Source: a virus
Virus record (IMG/VR): IMGVR_UViG_3300017769_000082
Location: 1 to 29,547 of that record
Reading direction: 5' to 3' (one strand)
DNA: 29,547 nt
The position numbers and the translations under genes are program-made. Positions 2 to 13,754 of this stretch are shown here, in pieces. The notes beneath the pieces are model-generated. The model had not been told where the DNA came from. It searched no databases and worked only from the letters and a program-made list of their open reading frames with translations. Position 1 is the stretch's first letter; every line of letters begins with the position of its first letter.

Positions 2-124
2 GCGTCTAATCTTGATTGGTTCTATCATCTCACTGGGGGTCACACTCACACTGACTTTTTTGCGATTAGGCCAACTGATTACAGTAAAGCAAACGAAAAT
101 GAAGATTTTGAAGACATTTGGTAG
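2..124 (+). CDS. nrdB: C-terminal end of a gene running in from the left, probably class I ribonucleotide reductase beta subunit
   Basis: An open frame enters from the left edge and stops at TAG 122-124, giving 40 residues. It contains TDFFAIRPTDYSKA and ends EDFEDIW. A 'FF..R.TDYSKA' segment followed by an acidic tail with a terminal aromatic residue is how many class I RNR beta subunits end: a mobile tail with a conserved Tyr that passes the radical to NrdA and docks in it. nrdA lies 0.7 kb downstream on the same strand, which supports the call. The first 98 bases are otherwise unexplained, and the next gene starts inside this one at 99. The diiron-site part of the protein is outside the window, so the identification rests on the tail and context. 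The alternative is an unrelated acidic C-terminus. Confidence 0.55.
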   Translation, partial: ASNLDWFYHLTGGHTHTDFFAIRPTDYSKANENEDFEDIW

Positions 125-347
125 TATACCAAACGACAAATTATTACACTTCTTTTATGGATCAATATTAAGTTTTATATTTTTGTTCATACTAGGAGTA
201 GACGGTTTATGGTTGACAGTATTAATTGCTGCGGCTAAAGAGTTAGTTTATGATTTATACTTAGACAAAGGTAATCCAGAAGTTATGGACTTTGTTTATA
301 CATGTATACCAGCAGGTATGTTTTTAATAATGCATTATATGATATGA
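99..347 (+). CDS. Small integral membrane protein of unknown function
   Basis: This 82-aa protein starts at ATG 99. A TTG at 12 opens the frame further, but it would run deep into the preceding nrdB-like frame, so 99 is preferred. It has hydrophobic stretches at about residues 20-34 and 37-47 and near the C-terminus. Polar motifs lie between them: NDKLLHFFYG, AAAKELVYD and MDFVYTCIPAG. The pattern of DK..H, KE..YD and DF..T..G is shared by small YfiM-like or phage membrane proteins of unknown role; that likeness is recalled, not computed. The gene overlaps its upstream neighbour by 26 nt and its downstream neighbour by 4 nt (ATGA), so it is translated as part of the nrd operon. No signal peptide or catalytic residues are evident. 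Confidence 0.75.
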   Translation: MKILKTFGSIPNDKLLHFFYGSILSFIFLFILGVDGLWLTVLIAAAKELVYDLYLDKGNPEVMDFVYTCIPAGMFLIMHYMI

Positions 348-822: not shown

Positions 823-2485
823 TTACCCTGATTGGGGTGATACAGAAGTATATAAGAAAACTATTGGTGGAGGTTATTTATATAATGGAGAAACACCACG
901 TGACGCTTATATGCGTGTTGCTACTACTGTAGCTAAAAGATTAAAAAAACCAGAATATGCTAAAACATTTTTTGATTACATATGGAAAGGCTGGCTTTGC
1001 TTGGCTTCGCCAGTTCTTAGCAACACTGGTACAGATCGCGGCTTGCCTATTAGTTGCTTTGGTATTGATGTTGCTGATTCAATTATAGATATTGGACAGA
1101 AAAACTTAGAGATGATGCTACTCGCTAAGCACGGCGGTGGAGTTGGTATCGGTATAAATCAAATCAGACCCGCTGGCGCTAAAATAACAGGTAATGGAAC
1201 AAGCGACGGAGTTGTGCCTTTTTGTAAAATATACGATAGCACAATACTTGCCACTAATCAAGGATCTGTCAGACGAGGAGCTGCATCAGTTAACATTAAC
1301 ATTGACCACCCCGATTTTGAAGAGTGGCTCGAGATTAGAGAACCTAAAGGAGACATTAACAGACAATCGCTTAACTTACATCAATGCGCTGTCGTCGGCG
1401 ATAAATTCATGCGAAGACTTGAAGCTGGAGATTCAGAAGCTAGAAAGAAGTGGGGAAAGTTATTACAAAAACGTAAAGCGACTGGAGAACCTTATATACT
1501 TTTTAAAGGTAACACTAACAAACAAAATCCACCGGCTTACAAAGACAACGCTTTAAAAGTACATATGACAAACATCTGTAGTGAAATAGTTTTACACACA
1601 GATGAAAACCACAGCTTTGTATGTTGTCTATCTAGTTTAAATCTAGCTAAATATGAAGAGTGGAAAAATACAAATATTATTTATGATTCAATATGGTTCT
1701 TAGACGGAGTACTTGAAGAGTTTATACAAAGATCTAAGTATAGAAAAGGTTTTGAAAACGCTGTAAGATCTGCTGAAAAAGGTAGGGCATTAGGTTTAGG
1801 TGTACTCGGATGGCATACTTATTTACAAGAAAAAGGTTTACCATTTGAAGGTTTATTATCACAATATGAAACAAGAAGAATTTTTAGTCAAATCAAAATC
1901 GAATCTGAACGAGCTAGCATGGCTCTTGCAGATGCTTTTGGAGAACCTCTTTGGTGTGTTGGTACTGGTATGCGTAATACCCATCTTCGCGCTATTGCTC
2001 CCACTGTTAGTAATTCTAAACTTTCTGGAAACATATCTCCCGGGATTGAACCCTGGGCGGCTAATGTATTTACAGAGCAGTCAGCTAAAGGCACGTTCAT
2101 TAGGAAAAATCCTACGCTGGTTAAAGTTTTGGAAGAGATAGGAATTAATAATAAAGAAACATGGGACAAAATATTAGCAGATGGTGGTTCGGTTCAAGAT
2201 ATAAAAGAATTAGACGAAGATACCAAAGAAATATTTAAAACATTTAAAGAAATAAATCAACTAGAGTTAGTTAGACAAGCTGGAGTTAGACAGCAATATA
2301 TAGATCAAAGTGTAAGTTTAAATTTAGCTTTTCCATCAGAAGCAAATCCTAAATGGATTAATCAAGTTCATCTTGATGCTTGGAAAAAAGGTATTAAAAC
2401 ATTATACTATATGAGAACCGAATCAGTACTACGTGGAGATATAGCAAGTAAAGCTATGGAAGACTGTGTTGCTTGTGACGGATAA
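791..2485 (+). CDS. nrdA: Ribonucleoside-diphosphate reductase, alpha (large) subunit, class I
   Basis: NrdA reduces ribonucleotides to deoxyribonucleotides in the cytoplasm together with NrdB and feeds phage DNA synthesis. The 564-aa chain shows the full catalytic set: Cys89 in LPISCFGID and Cys278 in VCCLSSLNL are the redox pair; Asn261, Cys263 and Glu265 in TNICSEI are the thiyl-radical site; Tyr539-Tyr540 in LYYMRTES is the radical-transfer pair; Cys559 and Cys562 in CVACDG are the C-terminal shuttle. The Tyr pair marks class I rather than class II. It is short compared with cellular NrdA (about 700-800 aa) because the N-terminal ATP-cone is absent, so dATP shut-off through that domain is unlikely. 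The ATG at 791 lies inside the preceding gene; no later start would keep the N-terminal helical region. A terminator follows directly. Confidence 0.95.
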   Translation: MWKKEWKKGVDYPDWGDTEVYKKTIGGGYLYNGETPRDAYMRVATTVAKRLKKPEYAKTFFDYIWKGWLCLASPVLSNTGTDRGLPISCFGIDVADSIIDIGQKNLEMMLLAKHGGGVGIGINQIRPAGAKITGNGTSDGVVPFCKIYDSTILATNQGSVRRGAASVNINIDHPDFEEWLEIREPKGDINRQSLNLHQCAVVGDKFMRRLEAGDSEARKKWGKLLQKRKATGEPYILFKGNTNKQNPPAYKDNALKVHMTNICSEIVLHTDENHSFVCCLSSLNLAKYEEWKNTNIIYDSIWFLDGVLEEFIQRSKYRKGFENAVRSAEKGRALGLGVLGWHTYLQEKGLPFEGLLSQYETRRIFSQIKIESERASMALADAFGEPLWCVGTGMRNTHLRAIAPTVSNSKLSGNISPGIEPWAANVFTEQSAKGTFIRKNPTLVKVLEEIGINNKETWDKILADGGSVQDIKELDEDTKEIFKTFKEINQLELVRQAGVRQQYIDQSVSLNLAFPSEANPKWINQVHLDAWKKGIKTLYYMRTESVLRGDIASKAMEDCVACDG

Positions 2486-2486
2486 T

Positions 2487-2519
2487 AAAAAAGGGAGGCG
2501 TAATGCCTCCCTTCTTGTT
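2487..2519. terminator. Bidirectional intrinsic terminator between convergent operons
   Basis: A perfect 7-bp stem (GGGAGGC at 2493-2499, GCCTCCC at 2505-2511) closes a 5-nt loop (GTAAT). It is preceded by A6 and followed by TTCTTGTT. Read on the - strand, the stem is followed by TTTTTTATT, a strong U-tract. Read on the + strand the tract is weaker but T-rich. It lies between the nrdA stop at 2485 and the last stop of the - strand operon at 2573, where a shared terminator is expected. Confidence 0.88.
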
Positions 2520-2572
2520 ACAGGATCTTTGGGTATGGTACGCCCATTATATTTTGATCCTATTTATTATAA

Positions 2573-3106
2573 TTATTGTTGTAATGGATTTCTTAAGTAT
2601 GATGGTACATTCGCTAACTCTTCTTCACTAGCGGCACCGTCTCCACTAGAACTTACCACGTCTTCTATTTCTCCTGTTCTAGTATTAAATTTAGTAGAAT
2701 AACTTTCATTAAAAAATTCTCTTTCAGCTTGCTCTTTAGTTTGTGCAGGTAGCATAGGATGTTTCTTTTTACCCACCATGCTCATATAGTCATCATATCT
2801 TTTACTGTAGGCTTGCTTTACAAGATCTTCTACTGGCTTATCTTCAATATCGTAAGTTAATTTTGTACCATCTGAATAAATTGGTCTGTTTGATAATACT
2901 CCATCTTCAGGATCTACATTAACTCCAAACTTAGGGCTAAAGTACGGTTTGTCAAACTTCATAGCCTGTGCTTGTAAACTGTCTTTTTGTTTTTGAGTCA
3001 AGGCTTGAAATGCTTTTTTGTCAGCTGGATCATATTTAAATCTTTGATTGTTGTTTAGTGGACCCATGTATGGTAGTTTGTAGTTACCTATGTTAAATTT
3101 TTTCAT
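2573..3106 (-). CDS. Unknown phage protein, last gene of the late operon
   Basis: This 177-aa protein is not recognised. The N-terminus is basic and Pro/Asn/Tyr-rich (MKKFNIGNYKLPYMGPL), the middle has many Lys and Asp residues, and the C-terminal 30 residues are Ser/Gly/Glu-rich and probably disordered (VSSSGDGAASEEELAN). It has no signal peptide, membrane segment or obvious enzyme motif. It overlaps the M15 peptidase gene by ATGA, so the two are probably translated together. The bidirectional terminator lies about 60 nt beyond its stop. It could be a minor virion protein or an accessory of lysis; neither is supported by a motif. Confidence 0.75.
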   Translation of the reverse strand: MKKFNIGNYKLPYMGPLNNNQRFKYDPADKKAFQALTQKQKDSLQAQAMKFDKPYFSPKFGVNVDPEDGVLSNRPIYSDGTKLTYDIEDKPVEDLVKQAYSKRYDDYMSMVGKKKHPMLPAQTKEQAEREFFNESYSTKFNTRTGEIEDVVSSSGDGAASEEELANVPSYLRNPLQQ

Positions 3107-3564
3107 ATTACTTTGTATTTAGTTCTACCCATATCATCTTTATAGGCTTTTAAACATTTATTTCTATTATCTTCTTCTGATACATATGATACATGCACCC
3201 AGTTTGGTTGTGTATCTGTTCCAAACTCCCAAATCATTTGATCAAAATCTAAATTTTCTTTTATCCAGTGGTACATTTCCGCATTAGTCTTACAACCATA
3301 CACATCGTCAATATCAATTGCTTGACCTTTACAATGTTGACTGGTTTTACTTCCGCCAATTGCTTCGTTAAGTTCTGGAGATCTAAAAAATGAATTAACT
3401 TTTATTGGTCCACCAACCCATTCTCTTAATGGTTGAAATACTTTTTCAGCTATTAATTTCATAGCTTCTATTTGTGTTGGGTTTGGCGTGTTGTCTATTC
3501 CTTTACGCTTTGCAGTTTCAGAGTGTATTGCTTCAGCATAAGTTATGTTACGACTTATTTTCAT
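3103..3564 (-). CDS. Peptidase M15-family endolysin (zinc D-Ala-D-Ala peptidase fold)
   Basis: This 153-aa protein is the probable endolysin, cutting peptide bonds in host peptidoglycan at the end of infection. The M15 zinc signature is present: SQHCKGQAIDID gives His77 and Asp84, and WVHVSY gives His124, the usual His/Asp/His ligands. Glu113 in DQMIWEFG is a candidate general base. The substrate-side motif VNSFFRSPELNEAIGG is also typical of the YcbK-like M15_3 group. The protein has only the catalytic domain, with no wall-binding domain and no signal peptide, so it needs a holin or another exit route. It overlaps its neighbours on both sides by ATGA. The 96-aa one-TM protein upstream in the operon is a possible partner. 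Confidence 0.9.
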   Translation of the reverse strand: MKISRNITYAEAIHSETAKRKGIDNTPNPTQIEAMKLIAEKVFQPLREWVGGPIKVNSFFRSPELNEAIGGSKTSQHCKGQAIDIDDVYGCKTNAEMYHWIKENLDFDQMIWEFGTDTQPNWVHVSYVSEEDNRNKCLKAYKDDMGRTKYKVI

Positions 3565-3977
3565 TTTTTGCTTTTATTTTTTTGACAAAAGTTTCTAGCA
3601 GATTCAACACTACCGAAACCCCATTTTTTTAAAGCCATAGCTTTCTTAGTTGGTTCACCCTTAGCGTCTTTCATAGCACCTTTCATACCAGCAAATCTAC
3701 ATGCAAAAGAAACTCTACGTTTGTTTTTACCTGACGTTAATCTTTTACCTAATTTTTTACCTGTTTCAGAAGTATATTCTGATCTCATTTTTTTATTCTG
3801 CTTTTCATAAGCAGCTTCTTTAATAGCAAGTGGAGCTTTACGTTTAGCTTGAGCCGCTTTAACAGATACATCATTACCTGTTCCTCTACCTGATATAGGT
3901 GCTTGCCTATTTCTTATACCGTTCCATGACTTAGTGTGCATGACAGCAGCGTTGCAATGTTTAATTGGTGTGCTCAT
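3561..3977 (-). CDS. Small basic Cys-containing phage protein, family unknown
   Basis: This 138-aa protein is taken to start at the ATG ending at 3977. That ATG forms a TAATG overlap with the preceding stop, as in neighbouring genes; the longer start at 3989 would add MRRI from inside that gene. Lys/Arg content is very high. The N-terminal segment KHCNAAVMHTKSWNG leads to a GRGTGND turn, then a long basic helix. The C-terminal block is RRVSFACRFAGMKGAMKD, then KKAMALKKWGFG and ARNFCQKNK. Similar 'SF-CR--GM-G ... LKKWGFGS' blocks occur in small proteins of marine phages and large viruses with no known function (recalled). A nucleic-acid-binding role is inferred from charge only. Confidence 0.78.
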   Translation of the reverse strand: MSTPIKHCNAAVMHTKSWNGIRNRQAPISGRGTGNDVSVKAAQAKRKAPLAIKEAAYEKQNKKMRSEYTSETGKKLGKRLTSGKNKRRVSFACRFAGMKGAMKDAKGEPTKKAMALKKWGFGSVESARNFCQKNKSKK

Positions 3978-4342
3978 TATTCTCCGCATTTTTTTGATGG
4001 ATCATCTACTCTTCTCCAGTCTTCTTTTTCAAACCAGTCACGTAGTGTAGCCCCTTTTTTACGAGCTCCTTTTACGTTTGTTTTAGATGATCGTTTATAT
4101 TTACCTTTTGCACCAGCTGATTTTTTAGAATTAACTAGCTTTTGTCTTTGCTCTTTACTCATGCTTCTTATTTTAGAAGCTGGTAAACAAGTTTTAGTTG
4201 TGCCTCCACCTTTTTGTTTCGTCAAAGCTGAATCACTTTTAGATACACAATTAGGAACTCTTCTTCCATCTTTCATTTTAGTTCCTTGTTGCCTGTGTGT
4301 TTTCCAACAAGTAAAAGGTGAATTATTTTGTATATAAGCCAT
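3977..4342 (-). CDS. Small basic Cys-containing phage protein, family unknown
   Basis: This 121-aa protein is strongly basic with five scattered cysteines. The order of blocks is: FTCWKTHRQQGTKMKDGRR with VPNCVSK at the N-terminus; GGGTTKTCLPASKIRSMSKE; a Lys/Gly-rich linker AKGKYKRSSKTNVKGARKKG; and a C-terminal LRDWFEKEDWRRVDDPSKKC. The 'KMKDGRRVPNCV' and 'LRDWFEKEDW' blocks recur in small phage and giant-virus proteins (DUF5872-like, recalled and not verified). It uses a TAATG junction with both neighbours. Possible roles are DNA condensation or a virion-internal protein; no motif decides between them. Confidence 0.8.
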   Translation of the reverse strand: MAYIQNNSPFTCWKTHRQQGTKMKDGRRVPNCVSKSDSALTKQKGGGTTKTCLPASKIRSMSKEQRQKLVNSKKSAGAKGKYKRSSKTNVKGARKKGATLRDWFEKEDWRRVDDPSKKCGE

Positions 4343-4494
4343 TACTTTTTACCTCCTCCAAATTTACTTGGACCACCTGCTTTAGTACATCTCACACCCC
4401 AACCTGAAGCGTATGCGCTTGGCCAAACTTTAAACTTTCTTTTTGCAGCTGATTTACAAGCTGAACTTATTTTTCCGTATAATGGTGAACTCAT
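4342..4494 (-). CDS. 50-aa basic protein with WPSAYASGWGVRC motif
   Basis: This is a very short gene with ATG ending at 4494 and TAA at 4342-4344 that overlaps the next ATG as TAATG. The product begins MSSPLYGKISSACKSAAKRK and ends GGPSKFGGGKK, with WPSAYASGWGVRCTKAGG between. It has about 11 Lys/Arg residues and no Asp or Glu. The block KVWPSAYASG-GV-C resembles the conserved core of DUF5872-like viral proteins (recalled). It lies between two other small genes in the same operon with the same junction style, which argues that it is real despite its size. Function is unknown; the charge suggests contact with nucleic acid. Confidence 0.75.
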   Translation of the reverse strand: MSSPLYGKISSACKSAAKRKFKVWPSAYASGWGVRCTKAGGPSKFGGGKK

Positions 4495-4499
4495 AATAA

Positions 4500-4646
4500 T
4501 TAGTTTTCGCCAAACACCGCGTAAGCATAAACTTTACGTTTCTTGCCAAAAGGTATTGTAGCTATTAATTCTCTTCTTTCTTTTACCAGATCCTCTTCAA
4601 CTGGATAATACTTAGGATTTTTACTATTTAATTTTCTTTTTTTCAT
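4500..4646 (-). CDS. 48-aa unknown protein, translationally coupled small gene
   Basis: The ATG ends at 4646, where TAATG overlaps the stop of the thioredoxin-like gene. The TAA is at 4500-4502, 5 nt from the next start. The product runs MKKRKLNSKNPKYYPVEEDL then VKERRELIAT, IPFGKKRKVY and AYAVFGEN. It is basic at the N-terminus with a short acidic helix and a probable two-strand C-terminal hairpin around the GKKRK turn. I do not recognise it. Its position in an unbroken chain of coupled genes, with no spare spacing, supports that it is expressed. Confidence 0.68.
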   Translation of the reverse strand: MKKRKLNSKNPKYYPVEEDLVKERRELIATIPFGKKRKVYAYAVFGEN

Positions 4647-5056
4647 TAGAACTGACTTGCAGTGTTAATTTCGTTTATTGCTTCTTGTATTTCATTTAAA
4701 TTAGCAGGTAACATAAGATCTAATCCTGCTTTAAAAACTGTTTCTTTAATTCCATTTTTAAATATTATTAAAGTTGGAGCCATACGAACTCTATATTTCT
4801 TTTTTGCTTCAGGTGCTTTAGCTATATCTACTCTATAATAAATTACATCTTCTAATTTACCCCAATCAGCAAAGCAATTTACTTCGTTAAACTTAGCCCA
4901 AAACTCTACGATAACAGGTTTTGTTTGGTCATCACCAAAAGCTTCATTAGTGTTTATAGCTTTTTCAAAGCCGCTATCATCTATCCAATATTTTTCTGGA
5001 ACATCTTGTTGACTAAATGATAAAAATGGTATTAAAATTAAAATTAAGTATTTCAT
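4646..5056 (-). CDS. Exported thioredoxin-fold protein lacking the CxxC active site
   Basis: This 136-aa protein has a signal peptide (MKYLILILIPFLSFSQQ, cleavage near residue 16). The mature part has the thioredoxin layout: strand VIVEFWA (48-54), then a strand with YYRVDIAK (73-80), then RMAPTLIIFKNG (91-102) with the expected cis-Pro94. The active-site loop that normally reads WCGPC is FNEVN here, with Asn57 and Asn60 in place of the two cysteines and a single Cys61 just after. It therefore cannot act as an ordinary dithiol oxidoreductase. It may work as a binding or chaperone-like fold in the periplasm, or use Cys61 alone. It sits between a one-TM coiled-coil gene and a run of small basic genes, with TAATG junctions on both sides. 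Confidence 0.8.
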   Translation of the reverse strand: MKYLILILIPFLSFSQQDVPEKYWIDDSGFEKAINTNEAFGDDQTKPVIVEFWAKFNEVNCFADWGKLEDVIYYRVDIAKAPEAKKKYRVRMAPTLIIFKNGIKETVFKAGLDLMLPANLNEIQEAINEINTASQF

Positions 5057-5346
5057 TATCTTTGTCTTTGTATATCGTATAATCTTTCATCTATTTTTTT
5101 AAGATCTTCTAGTATCTTATCTACATCATCTTGTGTATCCATAATTGTTTGACGAATTAATTCATCTTTCAAATCATATTCTACTCTATCAATAACAGGT
5201 TCAGGCATCTGCATAGCAAGAGCAATATCGGATTGTAAAGCAAACCACATAGTTGTTAACGATACAACTCCTCCAATTATTAAACCTATTGTCTTAAGGT
5301 CAAGTGTTACCTTAGTATTTTCTCCAATTTGCGGTGCGCCTGCCAT
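5056..5346 (-). CDS. Single-TM protein with C-terminal coiled coil
   Basis: This 96-aa protein has a soluble N-terminus (MAGAPQIGENTKVTLDLK), one membrane helix at about residues 19-37 (TIGLIIGGVVSLTTMWFAL), then a mostly charged helix from about residue 55 to the end with heptad-like spacing (DDVDKILEDLKKIDERLYDI). The topology fits an inner-membrane anchor with a rod in the periplasm or cytoplasm, as seen in i-spanins and some holin-associated proteins. The M15 endolysin is in the same operon, which makes a lysis role plausible but unproven. The alternative is a membrane tether for the neighbouring exported proteins. The stop overlaps the thioredoxin-like start (TAATG). Confidence 0.78.
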   Translation of the reverse strand: MAGAPQIGENTKVTLDLKTIGLIIGGVVSLTTMWFALQSDIALAMQMPEPVIDRVEYDLKDELIRQTIMDTQDDVDKILEDLKKIDERLYDIQRQR

Positions 5347-5347
5347 T

Positions 5348-6526
5348 TTATTTTAGTGTTATGTTTAATCCTACTGAGCCGTTATATATTTTACTATCCC
5401 AAAACTTAGTGTATTCACCTTCAACAAACAAACCTATATTTTTACTAAGTTTCCAACCAAACTGTACGCCAGCTTGGTAATCTTCCCATTGTTTTTTATC
5501 TGCATCTTGTATTAATCCTCCGAGACCCCAATTATCTCTATTAAAATAACTAAAAGCTTCATCACCTTTTATATAGTTATGAAACCCCGGTAAATAAGAC
5601 CCATACGCGTGAAGCCAGAAATTATTTTTATAATGGTAATAATCAAAACCGATGATAGGAGATATTACACCAAATGCATCTATCTCACTCCACACTTCGT
5701 TGTTATAACGATTCATCAGATCAGTAAACACTGTCTGTCTAAACTGTAAATCTGTATAAGCTACAGTTTCACCTTCTTCATTTATCCAGTACCAATCAGA
5801 TACTGTTTCACCTGAATAATCATCTTCGTATGTATAATATATATCATCATATCCATAATAAAAACCTAAAGTATACCATGGGTTCACAGCATAACCGTCC
5901 TCGTTAGTTTCATTTAGCCATATTTCTACAGGATTATAACCATAAGGACGATCATGAGTTCTATAAATAGCGCCTGCACTCAGAGAGAATTTTTTACCAA
6001 TTGGAAGCTTAGCTCTTAGTTCCGCTGATTTATAATCAAAGTTTATTTTACCTTGTTTTCTACTTTCTATTTTTACCATGTGGTATTTACCACTATGTTT
6101 TAAGAAATATCTGTGATTTTTAAATACATCATCTCTTGATCTTTCTTTTTCAGTATGAAATACATATTCAAAACCTTTAACAGCTGAATTAGGAGCAACC
6201 ATAGACACGTTAGATTCAGTGCCATCATAGTATTGTTTACCTTTTATTTCATAATCGAACCTTGCTACTTTACGAATACCAAAACCATAACGATAATCAT
6301 AGTCATAATAGTCAGTACCATCTACTACAACAGGCACATCATATAAGCTACCGTTAGGATTTGTTCTTACAAAATAGCTAGGAGCATTTTCTTTAGAATT
6401 TTTAATATCACCAGACACGTATACCGTACTGTATTTTAAAAAGTCTTTAAATAATTTCTTTTTATCCTGAGCGTTAGCAGATACCGCAATAACCACCGCA
6501 AATAGCGCAAATAGTATTTTTTTCAT
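5348..6526 (-). CDS. Signal-peptide-bearing, outer-membrane beta-barrel-like protein
   Basis: This 392-aa protein begins with a clear Sec signal peptide (MKKILFALFAVVIAVSANAQ, cleavage after ANA). The mature part is rich in Tyr, Asp, Asn and Gly, with repeated short amphipathic strands such as KKFSLSAGAIYRTHD, YTLGFYYGYDDIYYTY, NFWLHAYGSYLPGF, AGVQFGWKLSKNIGLFVEG and NGSVGLNITLK at the C-terminus. That alternation is typical of porin-like beta-barrels. The last residue is Lys rather than the aromatic seen in classical OMPs. Exported outer-membrane proteins are unusual among phage late genes. It could alter the host surface, block superinfection or take part in lysis. An exported beta-rich adhesin cannot be excluded. 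Barrel assignment is by pattern, not model. Confidence 0.75.
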   Translation of the reverse strand: MKKILFALFAVVIAVSANAQDKKKLFKDFLKYSTVYVSGDIKNSKENAPSYFVRTNPNGSLYDVPVVVDGTDYYDYDYRYGFGIRKVARFDYEIKGKQYYDGTESNVSMVAPNSAVKGFEYVFHTEKERSRDDVFKNHRYFLKHSGKYHMVKIESRKQGKINFDYKSAELRAKLPIGKKFSLSAGAIYRTHDRPYGYNPVEIWLNETNEDGYAVNPWYTLGFYYGYDDIYYTYEDDYSGETVSDWYWINEEGETVAYTDLQFRQTVFTDLMNRYNNEVWSEIDAFGVISPIIGFDYYHYKNNFWLHAYGSYLPGFHNYIKGDEAFSYFNRDNWGLGGLIQDADKKQWEDYQAGVQFGWKLSKNIGLFVEGEYTKFWDSKIYNGSVGLNITLK

Positions 6527-6532
6527 TTTTCA

Positions 6533-6610
6533 TTATTTGTAATTTTTAAACATTAATTTATAAAGCAATTTGTTCCAAGCTTGCTGCAACTTGTCAATAA
6601 ATTTTTTCAT
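6533..6610 (-). CDS. Possible 25-aa amphipathic basic peptide
   Basis: A short frame fills the only gap between the giant protein gene and the beta-barrel gene. The ATG ends at 6610, one base after the preceding stop, and the TAA is at 6533-6535. The product begins MKKFIDKLQQAWNKLLYKLM and ends FKNYK, a strongly amphipathic basic helix that could sit on a membrane. Its junction with the previous gene is as tight as those of real neighbours. Its size means it may also be chance. No family is recognised. Confidence 0.42.
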   Translation of the reverse strand: MKKFIDKLQQAWNKLLYKLMFKNYK

Positions 6611-6611
6611 G

Positions 6612-9600
6612 TTATGGTTTTTTATAGTATTGTATTAACCCGTCGTATCTCTCTATAGCTAAATAATCAACGCCTAATTTACCATTTGGTTTACCAGATT
6701 TTGGTCCTGTAAATGGTATACGTTTTGTGAATCCCATAGTTTTTGCTTTACGCACGTCTTCTTTAAATTTTTCTTTTACTTTTTCTTCGTCTTTAGCTTC
6801 TTTATCTATTGTGCTTTGTCTTCCCCAATATGGTAATCCAAAGTTCCAACCTGACCAACCTAATGCTAAAGCAACTCTTTGCCATGTCTTAGTTTCTTCA
6901 TCAGTAGCTTGTCTTAAGTTGTTAAGCTTTTGCAAAGCTCTATCAATAGGTAAGTTTGTAGTTGCAGATATTATTTGTGCTACAGCTAAATAAGCTGGGT
7001 TATCTATACTCCAACCTCTTTTCTTAATCTCTTTCATGTTCCAGTCAAAAGTCTTAAAAGCAGTTCTTAACTTACGAACTTTAGAATCTAGCACTGGTGA
7101 TATATCAAACACGTTCCACACTACATCTCTGTACTGTGTTGTTTTCTTTTCAGACTCACTAGCTATTCTCATTAAAACATTTTTAACAGTAGATATTATA
7201 GCTCCACCAAAACCAAGACCGAATAATAAAGAATCAGCCATACCATTTACTATATTTGCAGCTTTATCTTTTTCATCTTCATCTGGTTCGTCATCAAATG
7301 CTAAGCCAAATAAAGCTTGTTGCATTGCGTTAAATATTAAGTTTTGAACACTTACGTAATATATAATACTAGATAAATTACTAAGATCACTTTCACGCTG
7401 TGTCATACCCGGTTTTGCACGTCTATTATAAAGATCTTGTATAGATTTTTTAGTTTTTCTATTATACTGCATCGTAACATTTTGAAACGATAATATAATA
7501 CGACCAGCAAAACTAGCTTGTTGAGTTGAGATTCTACTTGGATTACTTGACTGCTGTGTTTCTTCTGCTATTGCATAGAAATCATCAAACGCTTGTTGTT
7601 CTGCTTGAGCTTCAGTATATAGCTTACCAGTATCTTTATTGACCCTATTTTGTAAAGATTTTTTTCTATTTATAAAAAATGTAGCACCACCTGTAGCAAT
7701 AGCTACACTATCCATAATTCTTGTAATCGCAAATCCTTTATCAAGAAGATAATTGATCATACCTTTTACACCACCTTTTCTACCAGCATCAGTTAATTCA
7801 GCTTCGTTTACATTAATCTTTAGACCATCACGTCTATTAACCAAGTAATCAGAGTTTATTAGTTTTAATACTGTTGGAAAATAATCCTTACTAACAAACG
7901 CTTTAGCGGCATCATATATATTATTATCACCCCAATTTATAAAATTTACATTAGATATTAGCTGAAGTAATCCAGATCTCATGTTGAAGAACATAACTGC
8001 ACCAACAGAAGAGTTAAGCCAATCAAGCATTTCATTAACAATACGAGCTCCACCACCCACAAAAACAGGTCTGTTACTACCAGTTTTCATTCTACGTAAA
8101 GAATCCTCTAATGCTTCTCTAAATTTACTACCGTATATAGCTTCAATCTTATTTAAATTTTCTTTAGAAAATATAATATCTGCGTTTTCATTAAACTCAG
8201 TCATTAGTTTCTTTCTAAATCCAGTTTTTAAACCTTGCATTATGTCTGAAGCAATATTACCTGCTAACCAAGTTTGAGTTGGAGCTGGATATTGTTCTCC
8301 TTTTTGTATTAAAGCAACTTCATCAGCAAATACATTTAACTCGTTATCCGCTTCAACAGCTTTAACTAAATCGTTTACATCTCTTTGAGACATGCCTGGT
8401 ATATCCATACCTTGCTTATTCCACATGTAAACTCTAATTGCTTGTGACTTTGTATAAGGACCAACACCTATTTCTTCTAGTAACGGGTTTTTACCACGTT
8501 TGCTTTTTAAATTAGGAAATTGTTTTTTAAGTTCAGCAAAATCATTAGCAACAGATACTTGAGCCGATATTAATTCTTGCTCAGCTTTATTATAAGGATC
8601 CATTAAGTTTTCTTTTATAAACTTAGCGTGAGCATTACCTTGAGTTCCTTTACCCATAAACGCATACATAAGACCCATAAAGTCTTCGGCTGATGGTGTA
8701 ATTGTGAATTGTTTTAAAAATCTTTTAAAAGTACCTTTATCTTTTTGCTGTCCTTCTAATCTTCCTCTAGCATCAGAATATTTTTTAAATGCTTCTTTAC
8801 CAGTAACTTGTTCTAACTGTCTATTAAAATCTTTACCTAAGTTTCTACGCTTACTAGCTTTTGCTTGTTGTACTTTATTTTTTACATCAACAGCATCTAA
8901 TATTTGACTAACTGCTTTAACATTTGCAAATGAATCATCGGCAAAATAAAAATCATTATAACCTTCATCTGTTTTATTTAATACAAAATCTACTTTAGCC
9001 TGTGGTGATCCATCAGCTAAACCAGTTATATTAGATAAAGGTATATTTATTCCAATGCTTTTTAAGAACTGTTGTATTGCAGGACCAGCACTATTAGGTC
9101 TTGCTGTTAAAACAAATATATTACCACTACCAAATTTACCTTGACGTTTTCTAGCAAGATCTGCCAACGGTCCTTCAGCTGTATCAGATGATACATTTTC
9201 AAAATTACTAAAATCAAACTGTGCGCCTGCTTCGGTAAGATTACCTGCTTCTCTAGCAAATTCTGCAGCGCTTATTTCATTAATAGAACCATCAGGCATA
9301 TTAACTATAACTTTTTCTTTTGTGTTAGCAAGTGTATCATCAAAATCAAATATACTTATACCTTTTTGCTTAGGTGTTATTTTACTAGCTTGAACTTTAG
9401 TTTCTAACGAATTAACCATTACAGTTTTTTGTTGCTCGCTAGTCATGTTATCTGTAACTATAGTACTACCTTCATTTTTTGCAAACTTTATAGAGTTTTT
9501 TGCTTTAGCGTTTTGAATTGGTAAACTTTTATCTAATCTTATTTTAGCATCACCTATAGTTAAATCACCTTGCGCTACGTCAACTAATAATTTATTTTGA

Positions 9601-12600
9601 TAATTAATTGACTCTAAATTAATATCTGCTTTATTTTTTATAGGTAAACCCACTTCTTCAGCAAGAGTTTTACCATTTGTAGGATTAACGATAGAGTTTA
9701 AATCAATACCAGCAGCTGCTAATCTTACAGCTGCTACGTTAGAAGTTAAAATACTAGTACCTTCAGGTAAAATGCTATCAAGATTAGCTTCGTCTAATTT
9801 AGTGTCATCTTTTTTAGATAACTGTGTTTGATAATAATTATTTTTAATAGCTTTTATTATTGGAGACATTTTATTATTAGCAATACCATATATTAAATTA
9901 GCCCCAATTACTGAAGCAGGTGGATTATGCTCTTCTCTAAATTTTTCACCTGTTCTTTGACTTGGTTTACCAGTTTTAGCATGTTCAAATTTTTTAGATT
10001 TATATTTAAACGGCGCGGATATTTTTATTAAACCAGTAGTCGCTTGATAACCAGAAGAGATAAACAAAGCCGCTATCTCAGCGCTCATTTGTTTTTTCTC
10101 AACCGCATTAGTTAATTTGTTAGCAACAAACTCTAAAGCTTTAATATTTTCTTCAGACTGTTTAACACCTTTATTAGTAAAAGCTTTTTTAACACTAACT
10201 CTTTTAGGAGGTTTTATTTTATATTTGTCATCATTTTTTGTAGCCAATTGTAAAGCTTTTTTATAAGCTGGATCACTTTTACCATAATACAAACCTCCTC
10301 GTGCTGGTAAATTTACATATTTTCCATCTACTTTTCTTCTAGCAAAATTACCAAATTTAGAACTTTCAAACATCCAGCTTGGTATTGAAGCATCTATTAT
10401 TGCTTTTTCCATTTGCTTTATTTTTTCGGCTCTATTATTATCATTAATAGTTACTTTACCTTCTATGCCCGATAATTTAATTGCTTCGTTTATATTTTTG
10501 GCAACTGCTAATTCTTTTAAAACATTTATATCTTTTTCTGTTAAAGATTTTTTAACATCAGGTTTTTTAGATGTAGGTTTTTTAGGCGTAGACTTTTTAA
10601 CTGCAGGTTTTTTAATAAAGTCTTTTATTGATTTTGTAAAATCTTTAATAGCAGAGGCTAAAGATCTACCAGCATTTCTAGCGGCTCTAAGTGTTCTAAG
10701 CCCAGCTTCAACAACACCAGCTAAAGCATTCATAGATAAATTTGTTTTTCTAAATGTCTCTAGTTTTGATATAGCCTCGCTTAAAACATCTACTTGTATA
10801 TCATTTACACTATCCTCTGTTATCATTTCATTAACAACTGAGTCAACAGTACCTTCTACAACATCTAAAGACTTATCCTCTAAATTTCTTTTATCTAAAT
10901 TAAACTCTACTTCATCTAAAAACTGCTCTGCTGTTAAATCAGATCCTTTTAATTCTAATCTACCTTGTAAATCAGTCACAAAAGCTTGGTCACCTTTAAG
11001 TTCTTGCATCTGCTCTATAGCAATACCTTCACCTAAAACTTCCATTAAAGATTGATGACGCTTTTCGTTATCTTTAAAATATTCTTTTATAGTTTCTAGC
11101 TTAGCATCGGTAATAGCAGGTATTTTATAAACTGGTTTTTTAAAGTCAGTTCTTTTACCATCTTCTATTTTAACTGTTGGAACTCGGTCAATTACTTCTA
11201 TTTCAAATAATCTAGGGAATCTTCTTTTTAACTGAGCAACAGGTATTGTAGCAATAAAATCTTTTGTAATTAAACGATCTACATTATTATTGTATTGATC
11301 GCTATTCCATTTACCAAGTTTATTTTTTAAAAGCTGTCTATATTCTTTTGTTTTAATTTGATCAACTAAATTCTTAGCTACAACTTTTGGTGATGTACTA
11401 ACAGTAGCTACAGCTCTGTTAATATCATCTTTAACCATTACTGTTTGTTCTGATCTTACTTCTGGTGTAATATTTTCTGTAACAACTTCTAGCGTAGCAG
11501 GATATACTTTTGCTCTACCAGTTTCTTGAGGTGTAACATCTACCTCAACTTCTTCAGCTACAACTTCTCTAGCTTCAGGTCTATCTAAAGTAGTTGCATC
11601 TTTTTGACCAATGTATTTATCATATATACTTTGTGCTTTTGGAGCAATGTTAGCAGTTACAAATGTAGAAAAAGATCCTTTATCTGGTGACCATCTATTC
11701 ATTATACCTGCAAACTCTTTATTTATTTCAGCTACAGCATCTTCTCTAGCCATATCACCTTTACGAGTATCAAACTTGATTGCAGCTAAACCTATTTTGT
11801 TGTATTGATCTAATAAAGCTTCTACATCTACAGCAGAAGGATCTTGCTGATATTGAGTAGCTAATTCATCTGCTTTAGGTAATGATTTCCTAGTTGGTAA
11901 AATACTCATACCTACGACATTAGCTTTTTCAATTTTAGCGTCTGCTGCTAATTCGCTTAGTCTTGTGTTTATTTCGTTTACTCTAACTGTTTCTTCTTGA
12001 GTCAAAGCAGAGTCATTAACTTGTTTTACCACATTGTTTAGTTTATTTTTTTCTTTAACTAAACTAACCGCTTCTGTATTATCTGAAAGATTTACAGGTT
12101 TTAATTTATCTACAGCACTTTGAGTATCAATATAATTTTTTTTAATTTCATCAGCTTTCTCAACTGTTATTTCTCCTTGTGAAACTTGTTTATCCACCTG
12201 ATCATTTAATCTTTGTTGGACTATTGGTATTTGAGTTAATTCTATTGATTGAGGTGTTACTTCGCTTATACTAAAAGTTTCACCTAAAGTTTTATAATCA
12301 GTTTCTTTTAATATACTGTTTATTCTTGAATTATTTACACCTCTTGAAATTATATTAGGCACAGCGCCAGCTGTAGTTACTGTTTTACCAGAAACACCAC
12401 CTATTATAAAAGTATCTATATACTCTTTTAATTTACCAACAAATGCGTTTTCATCTCCAAGAACTAAAAATTCTGAAGCATCTTGTAATACAGATGTTGC
12501 TGCTTCTGTTAAACCTTCACCACCAAAGCCTTTGATAATTTCAACACCCCATTGTTTTAAAGATTTATCTGCTATGTTTTTAGAAACACCAAATAAATTT

Positions 12601-13754
12601 TTAAACATACTTTTTCCAAGACCAGCAGAGAATCTATCTAAAGTTGCTTCAAAACCACCAACAAGATTACTATGAAGCATTAATTTACCACTTATATCTC
12701 CTTTTTCAATAATTTTTTGTAGCTCAGCTTTTTTAGTGTCATAATCTGGATCTTGCACGCTAAGTTGATCTAATAATCTTTTTGCTTCATACGCTTCATC
12801 TTGTTTAGCGCCGCTTTCACTAGCTGCTGTCCCAGCAAATAAAGAAACTAAACCAACATAAGGAGTTGTTGCTTGAGCCATATATAATAGAGAAGGTATT
12901 GCTTCTTGATAAGCCTGAGAAGTAGCTTGTAAAGCTTTTTTACCAGCTTCACCAAAATTTCCTTTTTTTAATTCTTCCCAACCATCTACAAAACTATCAC
13001 TTATTCCTGTTTCAAATTTGTAAATACTAGAATCTATTTCATCAATTTGTTTTTCTGCTTCATTTCTCATTTTTAATAAATAATTAGAAAAAGCACCCCA
13101 ATTTCCACCCCCTGCTAAAACAGCTGCTCTAGCATTAGGATTTAATTGATTTATTTTTTCTAATTCTTCATCTGTTAAAAGCATTGTTGCTTTTTTTTCA
13201 TTTAAAAAAGTAGGTAATCTTAATAAACCAGAAGATATAGATCTTAAAGTTGATTGTGTTTTTTTAGATATTTGCTCGCTAACACCTTCTCCTTTAGTAT
13301 AATATTCTAATTCTTTTTCTTTTTCTTTTTCAATAGTAGGTTTTAGCAAAGTATTCAACCTATCTAATTCATTTTGTAAAACAGCGTTATCAGGATCCAT
13401 TATACTTTTAGTTTTTGATAATGCTTTTTTAACATCAGCTATTTGTTGTGATATATTTTTAGATTCATTGTAAAAATCACCACTAGCTAATCTTAAATTT
13501 TTTTCTACATTTGATTGTGGTTTTATTTTTTCTTTTAATATATCATTAACAGTTTTAGACGGGTATTCTGGCTCTATAGGTTCTGTAGCTGAAGCAATAG
13601 TTAAAGGTATAGGTTTTTCTTCTACAACTTCTTCAACTTCCTCTTCAACTTGTGGTTGAGGATTATTTTTCTTCCATTCCTCTACTTTAGTATATATCTC
13701 TTCTTGAGATAAATTCTGATTCTGTAAAGAAATAACGTATTCTTGTAGAGTCAT
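6612..13754 (-). CDS. Giant ejection/internal virion protein with embedded HAD phosphatase-like domain
   Basis: This 2380-aa multidomain protein comes last among the virion genes, where podoviruses encode proteins ejected with the DNA. The N-terminus is coiled and Glu/Lys-rich. Residues about 283-307 are hydrophobic (IPSLLYMAQATTPYVGLVSL). About 655-735 form a helical block that ends SPDKGSFSTFVTANI. A Lys/Pro linker lies near 1050-1070 (KKSTPKKPTSKKPDVKKS). A HAD-type domain spans about 1465-1625: FDFDDTLANT with nucleophile Asp1470 and acid Asp1472, Thr1550 in FVLTARP, and the metal-site acids Asp1606/Asp1607 in FADDS. The C-terminal third is helical, resembles 'large polyvalent protein' domains (recalled), and has hydrophobic helices near 2134-2158 and 2171-2191. 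The start at 13754 directly follows the stop of the previous gene. Confidence 0.82.
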   Translation of the reverse strand: MTLQEYVISLQNQNLSQEEIYTKVEEWKKNNPQPQVEEEVEEVVEEKPIPLTIASATEPIEPEYPSKTVNDILKEKIKPQSNVEKNLRLASGDFYNESKNISQQIADVKKALSKTKSIMDPDNAVLQNELDRLNTLLKPTIEKEKEKELEYYTKGEGVSEQISKKTQSTLRSISSGLLRLPTFLNEKKATMLLTDEELEKINQLNPNARAAVLAGGGNWGAFSNYLLKMRNEAEKQIDEIDSSIYKFETGISDSFVDGWEELKKGNFGEAGKKALQATSQAYQEAIPSLLYMAQATTPYVGLVSLFAGTAASESGAKQDEAYEAKRLLDQLSVQDPDYDTKKAELQKIIEKGDISGKLMLHSNLVGGFEATLDRFSAGLGKSMFKNLFGVSKNIADKSLKQWGVEIIKGFGGEGLTEAATSVLQDASEFLVLGDENAFVGKLKEYIDTFIIGGVSGKTVTTAGAVPNIISRGVNNSRINSILKETDYKTLGETFSISEVTPQSIELTQIPIVQQRLNDQVDKQVSQGEITVEKADEIKKNYIDTQSAVDKLKPVNLSDNTEAVSLVKEKNKLNNVVKQVNDSALTQEETVRVNEINTRLSELAADAKIEKANVVGMSILPTRKSLPKADELATQYQQDPSAVDVEALLDQYNKIGLAAIKFDTRKGDMAREDAVAEINKEFAGIMNRWSPDKGSFSTFVTANIAPKAQSIYDKYIGQKDATTLDRPEAREVVAEEVEVDVTPQETGRAKVYPATLEVVTENITPEVRSEQTVMVKDDINRAVATVSTSPKVVAKNLVDQIKTKEYRQLLKNKLGKWNSDQYNNNVDRLITKDFIATIPVAQLKRRFPRLFEIEVIDRVPTVKIEDGKRTDFKKPVYKIPAITDAKLETIKEYFKDNEKRHQSLMEVLGEGIAIEQMQELKGDQAFVTDLQGRLELKGSDLTAEQFLDEVEFNLDKRNLEDKSLDVVEGTVDSVVNEMITEDSVNDIQVDVLSEAISKLETFRKTNLSMNALAGVVEAGLRTLRAARNAGRSLASAIKDFTKSIKDFIKKPAVKKSTPKKPTSKKPDVKKSLTEKDINVLKELAVAKNINEAIKLSGIEGKVTINDNNRAEKIKQMEKAIIDASIPSWMFESSKFGNFARRKVDGKYVNLPARGGLYYGKSDPAYKKALQLATKNDDKYKIKPPKRVSVKKAFTNKGVKQSEENIKALEFVANKLTNAVEKKQMSAEIAALFISSGYQATTGLIKISAPFKYKSKKFEHAKTGKPSQRTGEKFREEHNPPASVIGANLIYGIANNKMSPIIKAIKNNYYQTQLSKKDDTKLDEANLDSILPEGTSILTSNVAAVRLAAAGIDLNSIVNPTNGKTLAEEVGLPIKNKADINLESINYQNKLLVDVAQGDLTIGDAKIRLDKSLPIQNAKAKNSIKFAKNEGSTIVTDNMTSEQQKTVMVNSLETKVQASKITPKQKGISIFDFDDTLANTKEKVIVNMPDGSINEISAAEFAREAGNLTEAGAQFDFSNFENVSSDTAEGPLADLARKRQGKFGSGNIFVLTARPNSAGPAIQQFLKSIGINIPLSNITGLADGSPQAKVDFVLNKTDEGYNDFYFADDSFANVKAVSQILDAVDVKNKVQQAKASKRRNLGKDFNRQLEQVTGKEAFKKYSDARGRLEGQQKDKGTFKRFLKQFTITPSAEDFMGLMYAFMGKGTQGNAHAKFIKENLMDPYNKAEQELISAQVSVANDFAELKKQFPNLKSKRGKNPLLEEIGVGPYTKSQAIRVYMWNKQGMDIPGMSQRDVNDLVKAVEADNELNVFADEVALIQKGEQYPAPTQTWLAGNIASDIMQGLKTGFRKKLMTEFNENADIIFSKENLNKIEAIYGSKFREALEDSLRRMKTGSNRPVFVGGGARIVNEMLDWLNSSVGAVMFFNMRSGLLQLISNVNFINWGDNNIYDAAKAFVSKDYFPTVLKLINSDYLVNRRDGLKINVNEAELTDAGRKGGVKGMINYLLDKGFAITRIMDSVAIATGGATFFINRKKSLQNRVNKDTGKLYTEAQAEQQAFDDFYAIAEETQQSSNPSRISTQQASFAGRIILSFQNVTMQYNRKTKKSIQDLYNRRAKPGMTQRESDLSNLSSIIYYVSVQNLIFNAMQQALFGLAFDDEPDEDEKDKAANIVNGMADSLLFGLGFGGAIISTVKNVLMRIASESEKKTTQYRDVVWNVFDISPVLDSKVRKLRTAFKTFDWNMKEIKKRGWSIDNPAYLAVAQIISATTNLPIDRALQKLNNLRQATDEETKTWQRVALALGWSGWNFGLPYWGRQSTIDKEAKDEEKVKEKFKEDVRKAKTMGFTKRIPFTGPKSGKPNGKLGVDYLAIERYDGLIQYYKKP

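Follow-up and report, generated by a model that had tools for sequence, protein, structure and literature searches.

The 29.5-kb window, by which we mean the whole stretch of DNA analysed, is a fragment of a virus record whose minus strand carries a late operon. The operon runs in the order portal, scaffold-like, major capsid and tail genes, a gene for a 2380-aa protein, a trio of genes that we refer to as BB, TMCC and TRX, genes for several small basic proteins, and a gene for an M15 endolysin (Table 1). An earlier note on this DNA had proposed that three adjacent genes encode an outer-membrane-type protein, an inner-membrane anchor with a coiled coil and a periplasmic protein, and the three open reading frames (392, 96 and 136 aa) were found on the minus strand at the positions it gave. 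A gap of 1 nt separates BB from TMCC, and TMCC shares 1 nt with TRX. The gene for the giant 2380-aa protein is replaced or unrecognisable in some relatives that carry the trio. At the edge of the window (3-347) a partial small membrane protein with a DKLLHFFYG motif is encoded, which resembles the product of a gene between BB and the endolysin gene in another locus (L205:6227-6460); in many loci, small proteins related to it are encoded close to the trio.

Table 1. The trio and two further genes of the window's late operon.
Feature	Position	Strand	Evidence
BB, 392-aa predicted outer-membrane beta-barrel protein	5348..6526	-	Sec signal, AlphaFold, Foldseek
TMCC, 96-aa single-TM coiled-coil protein	5056..5346	-	ORF and alignment of members
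TRX, 136-aa predicted periplasmic thioredoxin-fold protein	4646..5056	-	PF00085 HMM, Foldseek
Endolysin, peptidase M15, same operon, downstream of the trio	3103..3564	-	PF08291 1e-16; PHROG endolysin 3e-31
2380-aa protein, directly upstream of the trio at the end of the structural operon	6612..13754	-	Context gene

The portal, capsid and tail genes of the window are related to those of the Flavobacteriia phages elemo, Panino, phi38:1 and Gundel, and this kinship makes a bacterium of the marine Bacteroidetes the probable host. The phages carrying the trio form an abundant, uncultured marine group. BB, and TMCC of the type found in the window, were absent from the isolated phages in INPHARED at tblastn sensitivity, and TRX as a query gave only generic thioredoxin matches among these isolates. 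Host assignment from GTDB is unreliable, since the contigs matched by BB there look like phage DNA that was binned in metagenome assemblies. Members of this phage group were seen in genome assemblies of unrelated prokaryotes, namely a GTDB Woesearchaeota assembly (L164, L165, L169) and Alphaproteobacteria, Maricaulis (L166, L168). A 77-kb contig of the group (G011) has similar, non-identical TRX-endolysin stretches at both ends (L264, L261), which suggests a circular genome assembled through two strains.

BB, TMCC and TRX are real genes, with hundreds of relatives and dN/dS values of 0.03-0.21 in comparisons of the three genes with five relatives. The identities that the earlier note had read from the letters, an outer-membrane-type barrel, a transmembrane coiled coil and a pseudo-thioredoxin, agree with structure prediction and Foldseek, with the alignment of family members and with the PF00085 profile, respectively. 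BB starts with a typical Sec signal peptide (aa 1-20, MKKILFALFAVVIAVSANAQ), a region more variable than the mature part of the protein. The AlphaFold (AF2) model is a 12-strand barrel of moderate model confidence (pLDDT 72). A Foldseek search with this model gave NanC as the best match (3e-6), followed by OmpT, EspP, PorB and Flavobacterium BamA, and all PDB matches at E<=0.001 are outer-membrane or outer-membrane-type barrels. BB is recognised by no Pfam or PHROG family. A homologue is present in BFVD (A0A516LKJ4, 24 percent identity, TM 0.65-0.74). Given the Sec signal and an antiparallel barrel that matches known outer-membrane proteins, BB is predicted to be an outer-membrane beta-barrel protein. 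Its predicted periplasmic turns are mostly 2-4 residues long, the single exception being 31 residues (aa 87-117), and on the extracellular side long loops with good conservation are predicted (aa 43-76, 192-284 and 313-348). Such loops on an outer-membrane-type barrel encoded late in an operon would also suit receptor shielding or superinfection exclusion, in which BB would occupy or block a surface receptor late in infection and TMCC and TRX would help to place it. Phage T5 provides an example, its Llp protein acting in this way on the FhuA receptor. We regard shielding or exclusion as distinctly unlikely here, as it explains neither why an inner-membrane coiled coil and a partner in the periplasm are obligate, nor why the trio is linked to an endolysin gene, nor why TMCC relatives lie beside endolysin genes without BB.

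TMCC has a single N-terminal transmembrane segment (approximately aa 20-37), and its C-terminal part (aa 56-96) is a coiled coil. One transmembrane segment followed by a C-terminal coiled coil was seen in all 26 aligned members, with strong conservation of the coiled coil, and TMCC contains no cysteines. Its orientation is probably N-in/C-out, although the distribution of charges makes this a weak call (KR 2.5 on the N side versus 1.5 on the C side). Similarity to PHROG 1009 (4e-4) was dropped as a functional clue because this family assigns no function, and a synthetic consensus TMCC used as a query gave zero matches. A tandem TMCC paralogue lies between BB and TMCC in 16 loci (including L062:9233-9538 and L069:9188-9490) and is closer to the type found in pelagiphages.

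TRX carries a Sec signal peptide (aa 1-16) and is a thioredoxin homologue by both profile (PF00085, 6e-7, 29.8 bits against a gathering score of 23.5) and structure (Foldseek matches to thioredoxins, 2e-7). The WCGPC site of thioredoxin is replaced by EFWAKFN-x-x-N-[C/A/K/S]F and the CxxC pair is lost in 35 of 35 aligned members, whereas the cis-Pro loop, RMAPT, and a KAGLDL-x-x-P motif vary little or not at all. TRX mostly has one cysteine. Sequence comparison thus identifies TRX as a true thioredoxin homologue that has lost its redox pair, and since the CGPC site is replaced in every aligned member while the cis-Pro loop is kept, we consider it a candidate redox-dead binding fold. With PF00085 thioredoxins it shares the fold and the cis-Pro loop, and it differs from them in lacking the CxxC pair, in being exported according to its signal and in the unusual KAGLDL-x-x-P motif. 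Thioredoxin folds without cysteines serve elsewhere as binding modules, which would also fit a different late function in the envelope, such as chaperoning in the periplasm or remodelling of the outer membrane for virion assembly or egress without lysis. As the linkage of the trio is to an endolysin gene and no linkage to assembly genes is seen beyond the position in the operon, we consider such a function very unlikely.

The predicted compartments of the three proteins are the inner membrane (TMCC), the periplasm (TRX) and the outer membrane (BB), in line with the span of the envelope envisaged in the earlier note. One protein per compartment, encoded after the last large structural-type gene, is also what might be expected of ejected virion proteins that form a trans-envelope channel for DNA, similar to T7 gp14/15/16. 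BB and TRX carry typical cleavable Sec signals, and proteins of this kind are exported by the cell that makes them instead of being packaged. The signals argue strongly against virion components, which the earlier note had named among the findings that would speak against its reading; a virion role of the trio is unlikely and was rejected on these grounds, and an ejected channel in particular is extremely improbable.

Searches with BB and TRX in the viral contigs of one viral database yielded at least 559 stretches encoding BB. The earlier note had treated the three genes as one module, and in related phages they are indeed kept together: the full trio lies within 3.4 kb (median 1.9 kb) in 145 of the 160 distinct BB sequences read, and the remaining 15 are found no more than approximately 1.7 kb from a contig end. 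TRX was seen without BB only in loci that begin within approximately 0.7 kb of a contig end. Two gene orders were found, BB-TMCC-TRX as in the window and TMCC-TRX-BB (23 loci); TRX of the latter order is strongly diverged and was found by HMM only. In L057-L061 and L073 the trio is intact while the giant protein and the endolysin of the window lineage are unrecognisable nearby. As the trio is kept in two orders and amid unrecognisable neighbours, its linkage is more than the synteny of a late operon, and the trio is an obligately linked module.

Within the module, the gap between TMCC and TRX is mostly -4 to +2 nt across loci, and BB and TMCC often have a further gene between them, which is the TMCC paralogue in the 16 loci mentioned above. 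Mirror-tree distances pooled over lineages gave r 0.84 for TMCC and TRX and approximately 0.3 for BB with either of them, a pattern that arises because two lineages carry different TMCC-TRX versions with similar BB. Within the main gene order BB, TMCC, TRX, the endolysin and RNR co-diverge similarly (r 0.35-0.70) and there is no signal for a specific partner. The pooled value was therefore rejected as a sign of specific co-evolution, and we limit the claim to the following: TMCC and TRX change as a unit between lineages, and BB occurs with different TMCC-TRX versions.

Of the 145 loci, 117 have, within 4 kb of the trio, a gene for an M15 endolysin of the family found in the window. The trio adjoins other endolysin types as well: in L063 an amidase together with a holin with three transmembrane segments, and in L254 a different endolysin type, again beside a 3-TM holin. 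TMCC homologues were also detected without BB and TRX directly before an endolysin (M15 or amidase) and a holin (L310, 3e-9; L334, 4e-14; both at Z=1000). The TMCC paralogue links the family to Pelagibacter phages (1e-8). In Pelagibacter phage HTVC027P the TMCC relative, gp15, is encoded two genes upstream of an M15 peptidase, and in HTVC121P, HTVC041P and a MedDCM T7-like phage the TMCC relative lies just before the terminase genes, which is the position of Rz/Rz1 in T7. In these four phages an overlapping or abutting gene for a protein of 70-74 aa follows (L274:5980-6610, L275:6995-7533, L276:5995-6593 and L277:3995-4593, from Pelagibacter and related marine phages), and this protein has at least two cysteines in all three phages, of the four, whose sequence was read. 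The two genes just before an endolysin or terminase gene are a candidate for an unannotated spanin pair.

In the stretches read of the cultured phages elemo, Panino, phi38:1 and Gundel and of MW202828, all of which share capsid and portal genes with the window, the trio was not detected by HMM. Each of these five relatives encodes a protein of 181-215 aa with an N-terminal transmembrane segment, near the endolysin gene or upstream of the terminase gene (L163:15970-16515, L161:15850-16452, L162:13227-13850, L271:9065-9664 and L272:25109-25756). Judged by eye from the sequence, its C-terminus resembles approximately four outer-membrane-type strands in four of the five (elemo, Panino, phi38:1 and MW202828), which suggests contact with the outer membrane. 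The phi38:1 protein (gp84) belongs to PHROG 25644, a family of unknown function, and that of Gundel weakly resembles DUF6549. These proteins share with the trio their placement near an endolysin or upstream of a terminase; unlike the trio they are single proteins, and they show no homology to it. We consider them candidate spanins of an unrecognised kind, made of a single protein whose end is of outer-membrane type. An uncultured relative without the trio encodes a 171-aa protein with a lipobox and a C-terminal transmembrane segment, the architecture of a u-spanin (L304:1084-1599); its gene overlaps an endolysin-like gene and is preceded by a multi-TM holin-like gene. Beside the lysis genes of three further relatives (L294, L307 and L324) no outer-membrane component is visible, so such a component is not always needed or not always visible, which limits the argument that other genes replace the trio.

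Neither the N-terminal-TM type nor a full-size u-spanin-like gene was found in eleven trio-bearing records of 56-77 kb, one of which (G002) encodes a 70-aa lipoprotein with a C-terminal transmembrane segment. Five of the eleven encode a lipoprotein of 124-147 aa with a Pro/Asn-rich tail, beside the endolysin gene or between BB and TMCC, and six do not; in the records with neither lipoprotein, no set of genes other than the trio is thus evident that would be aimed at the outer membrane. Across all loci, an open reading frame with a lipobox lies within 4 kb in 45 of 145, mostly encoding the Pro/Asn-rich lipoprotein. This protein (approximately 124-151 aa, with a THVLAxTxxGDTL motif and the Pro/Asn-rich tail) was seen in 42 of the 145 loci, either between BB and TMCC or next to the endolysin gene (e.g., L123:9248-9652 and L005:9086-9529), and could itself be an o-spanin. 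A lipoprotein embedded in the trio as a hidden o-spanin was sought in all frames and rejected: no plausible lipobox open reading frame is present in any frame of 2400-6700 of the window, nor elsewhere in its late operon.

An o-spanin-like lipoprotein in approximately 30 percent of the loci, the occurrence of TMCC without BB and TRX, and the pooled distances that set BB apart from TMCC and TRX would all fit a division of roles, in which TMCC is a lysis protein (holin-associated or an i-spanin) and BB and TRX, although in the same operon, form a pair of their own that acts late on the outer membrane, for example on its permeability. Such a division is unlikely, as BB without TMCC and TRX was seen only at contig ends and as the versions of TRX switch together with those of TMCC and not with BB.

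The definitions of two-component and unimolecular spanins used here were taken from PMC6139136. Like Rz of the lambda Rz/Rz1 pair, TMCC is predicted to be an inner-membrane protein with an N-terminal transmembrane segment and a periplasmic coiled coil, within the weak call of its orientation; an overlapping gene for an exported protein follows, an endolysin gene is near and late expression is probable for the trio. In contrast to Rz/Rz1 the trio has no lipoprotein partner and comprises a soluble thioredoxin fold and a predicted 12-strand outer-membrane barrel instead. The periplasmic cysteines that form an intermolecular disulfide in two-component spanins are not matched either, with none in TMCC and mostly one in TRX; approximately 4 percent of known spanins also lack cysteines (PMC6139136). 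The periplasmic helix of TMCC is short for a span of the envelope, which counts against a spanin-like reading. With unimolecular spanins such as T1 gp11 the trio would share the proposed role of linking or disrupting both membranes after the wall has been cut, but it consists of three proteins, none of which combines a lipobox with a C-terminal transmembrane segment. Because both the lipoprotein of two-component spanins and the u-spanin architecture are missing, we do not file the trio as a spanin: it is not a member of the known spanin families and is spanin-like in its working at most. Lambda Lom and porin-like BFVD proteins are phage-encoded outer-membrane beta-barrels, as is predicted for BB; no common sequence family with BB was found, and BB, unlike these, is always accompanied by TMCC and TRX and is mostly encoded close to an endolysin gene.

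The earlier note had left the choice between lysis, exclusion and a change of the cell surface. Lysis is favoured because an endolysin gene is adjacent, because TMCC relatives occur in lysis positions and because relatives without the trio have putative spanin-type genes; exclusion and surface change are less favoured by this context. We propose, at about even chances, that the trio is a spanin-like module for disruption of the outer membrane, with a barrel where spanins use a lipoprotein. It would be a late lysis module that acts across the envelope in the role of a spanin. TMCC would be anchored in the inner membrane and extend its coiled coil into the periplasm, and TRX, exported to the periplasm, would have kept the thioredoxin fold only for protein binding and would pair with TMCC. 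This pairing is proposed because the two genes overlap, are always adjacent and change together between lineages. BB would be inserted in the outer membrane by the BAM machinery of the host and serve as anchor or target there. As long as the peptidoglycan is intact, the parts would be held apart or immobile. Once the wall has been cut by the neighbouring M15 endolysin, released by a holin, TMCC-TRX could reach BB, the membranes would be pulled together or the outer membrane destabilised, and virions would be released. More tentatively, and at somewhat less than even chances, the trio may represent a new class of phage machine for outer-membrane disruption, in which an inner-membrane coiled coil and a redox-dead thioredoxin act on a phage-encoded barrel after the endolysin, and its users would be among the more abundant uncultured phages of the sea.

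How Bacteroidetes phages break the outer membrane is largely unannotated. A survey of flavophages gives no spanin for Calle or Gundel (PMC8776804), and in a general survey no spanin was found in 91 of 677 phages (PMC6139136). The trio is one small, testable gene set. If the proposed function is true, it would be a third architecture for the last step of lysis, with a barrel as the outer-membrane element, present in at least 559 database stretches.
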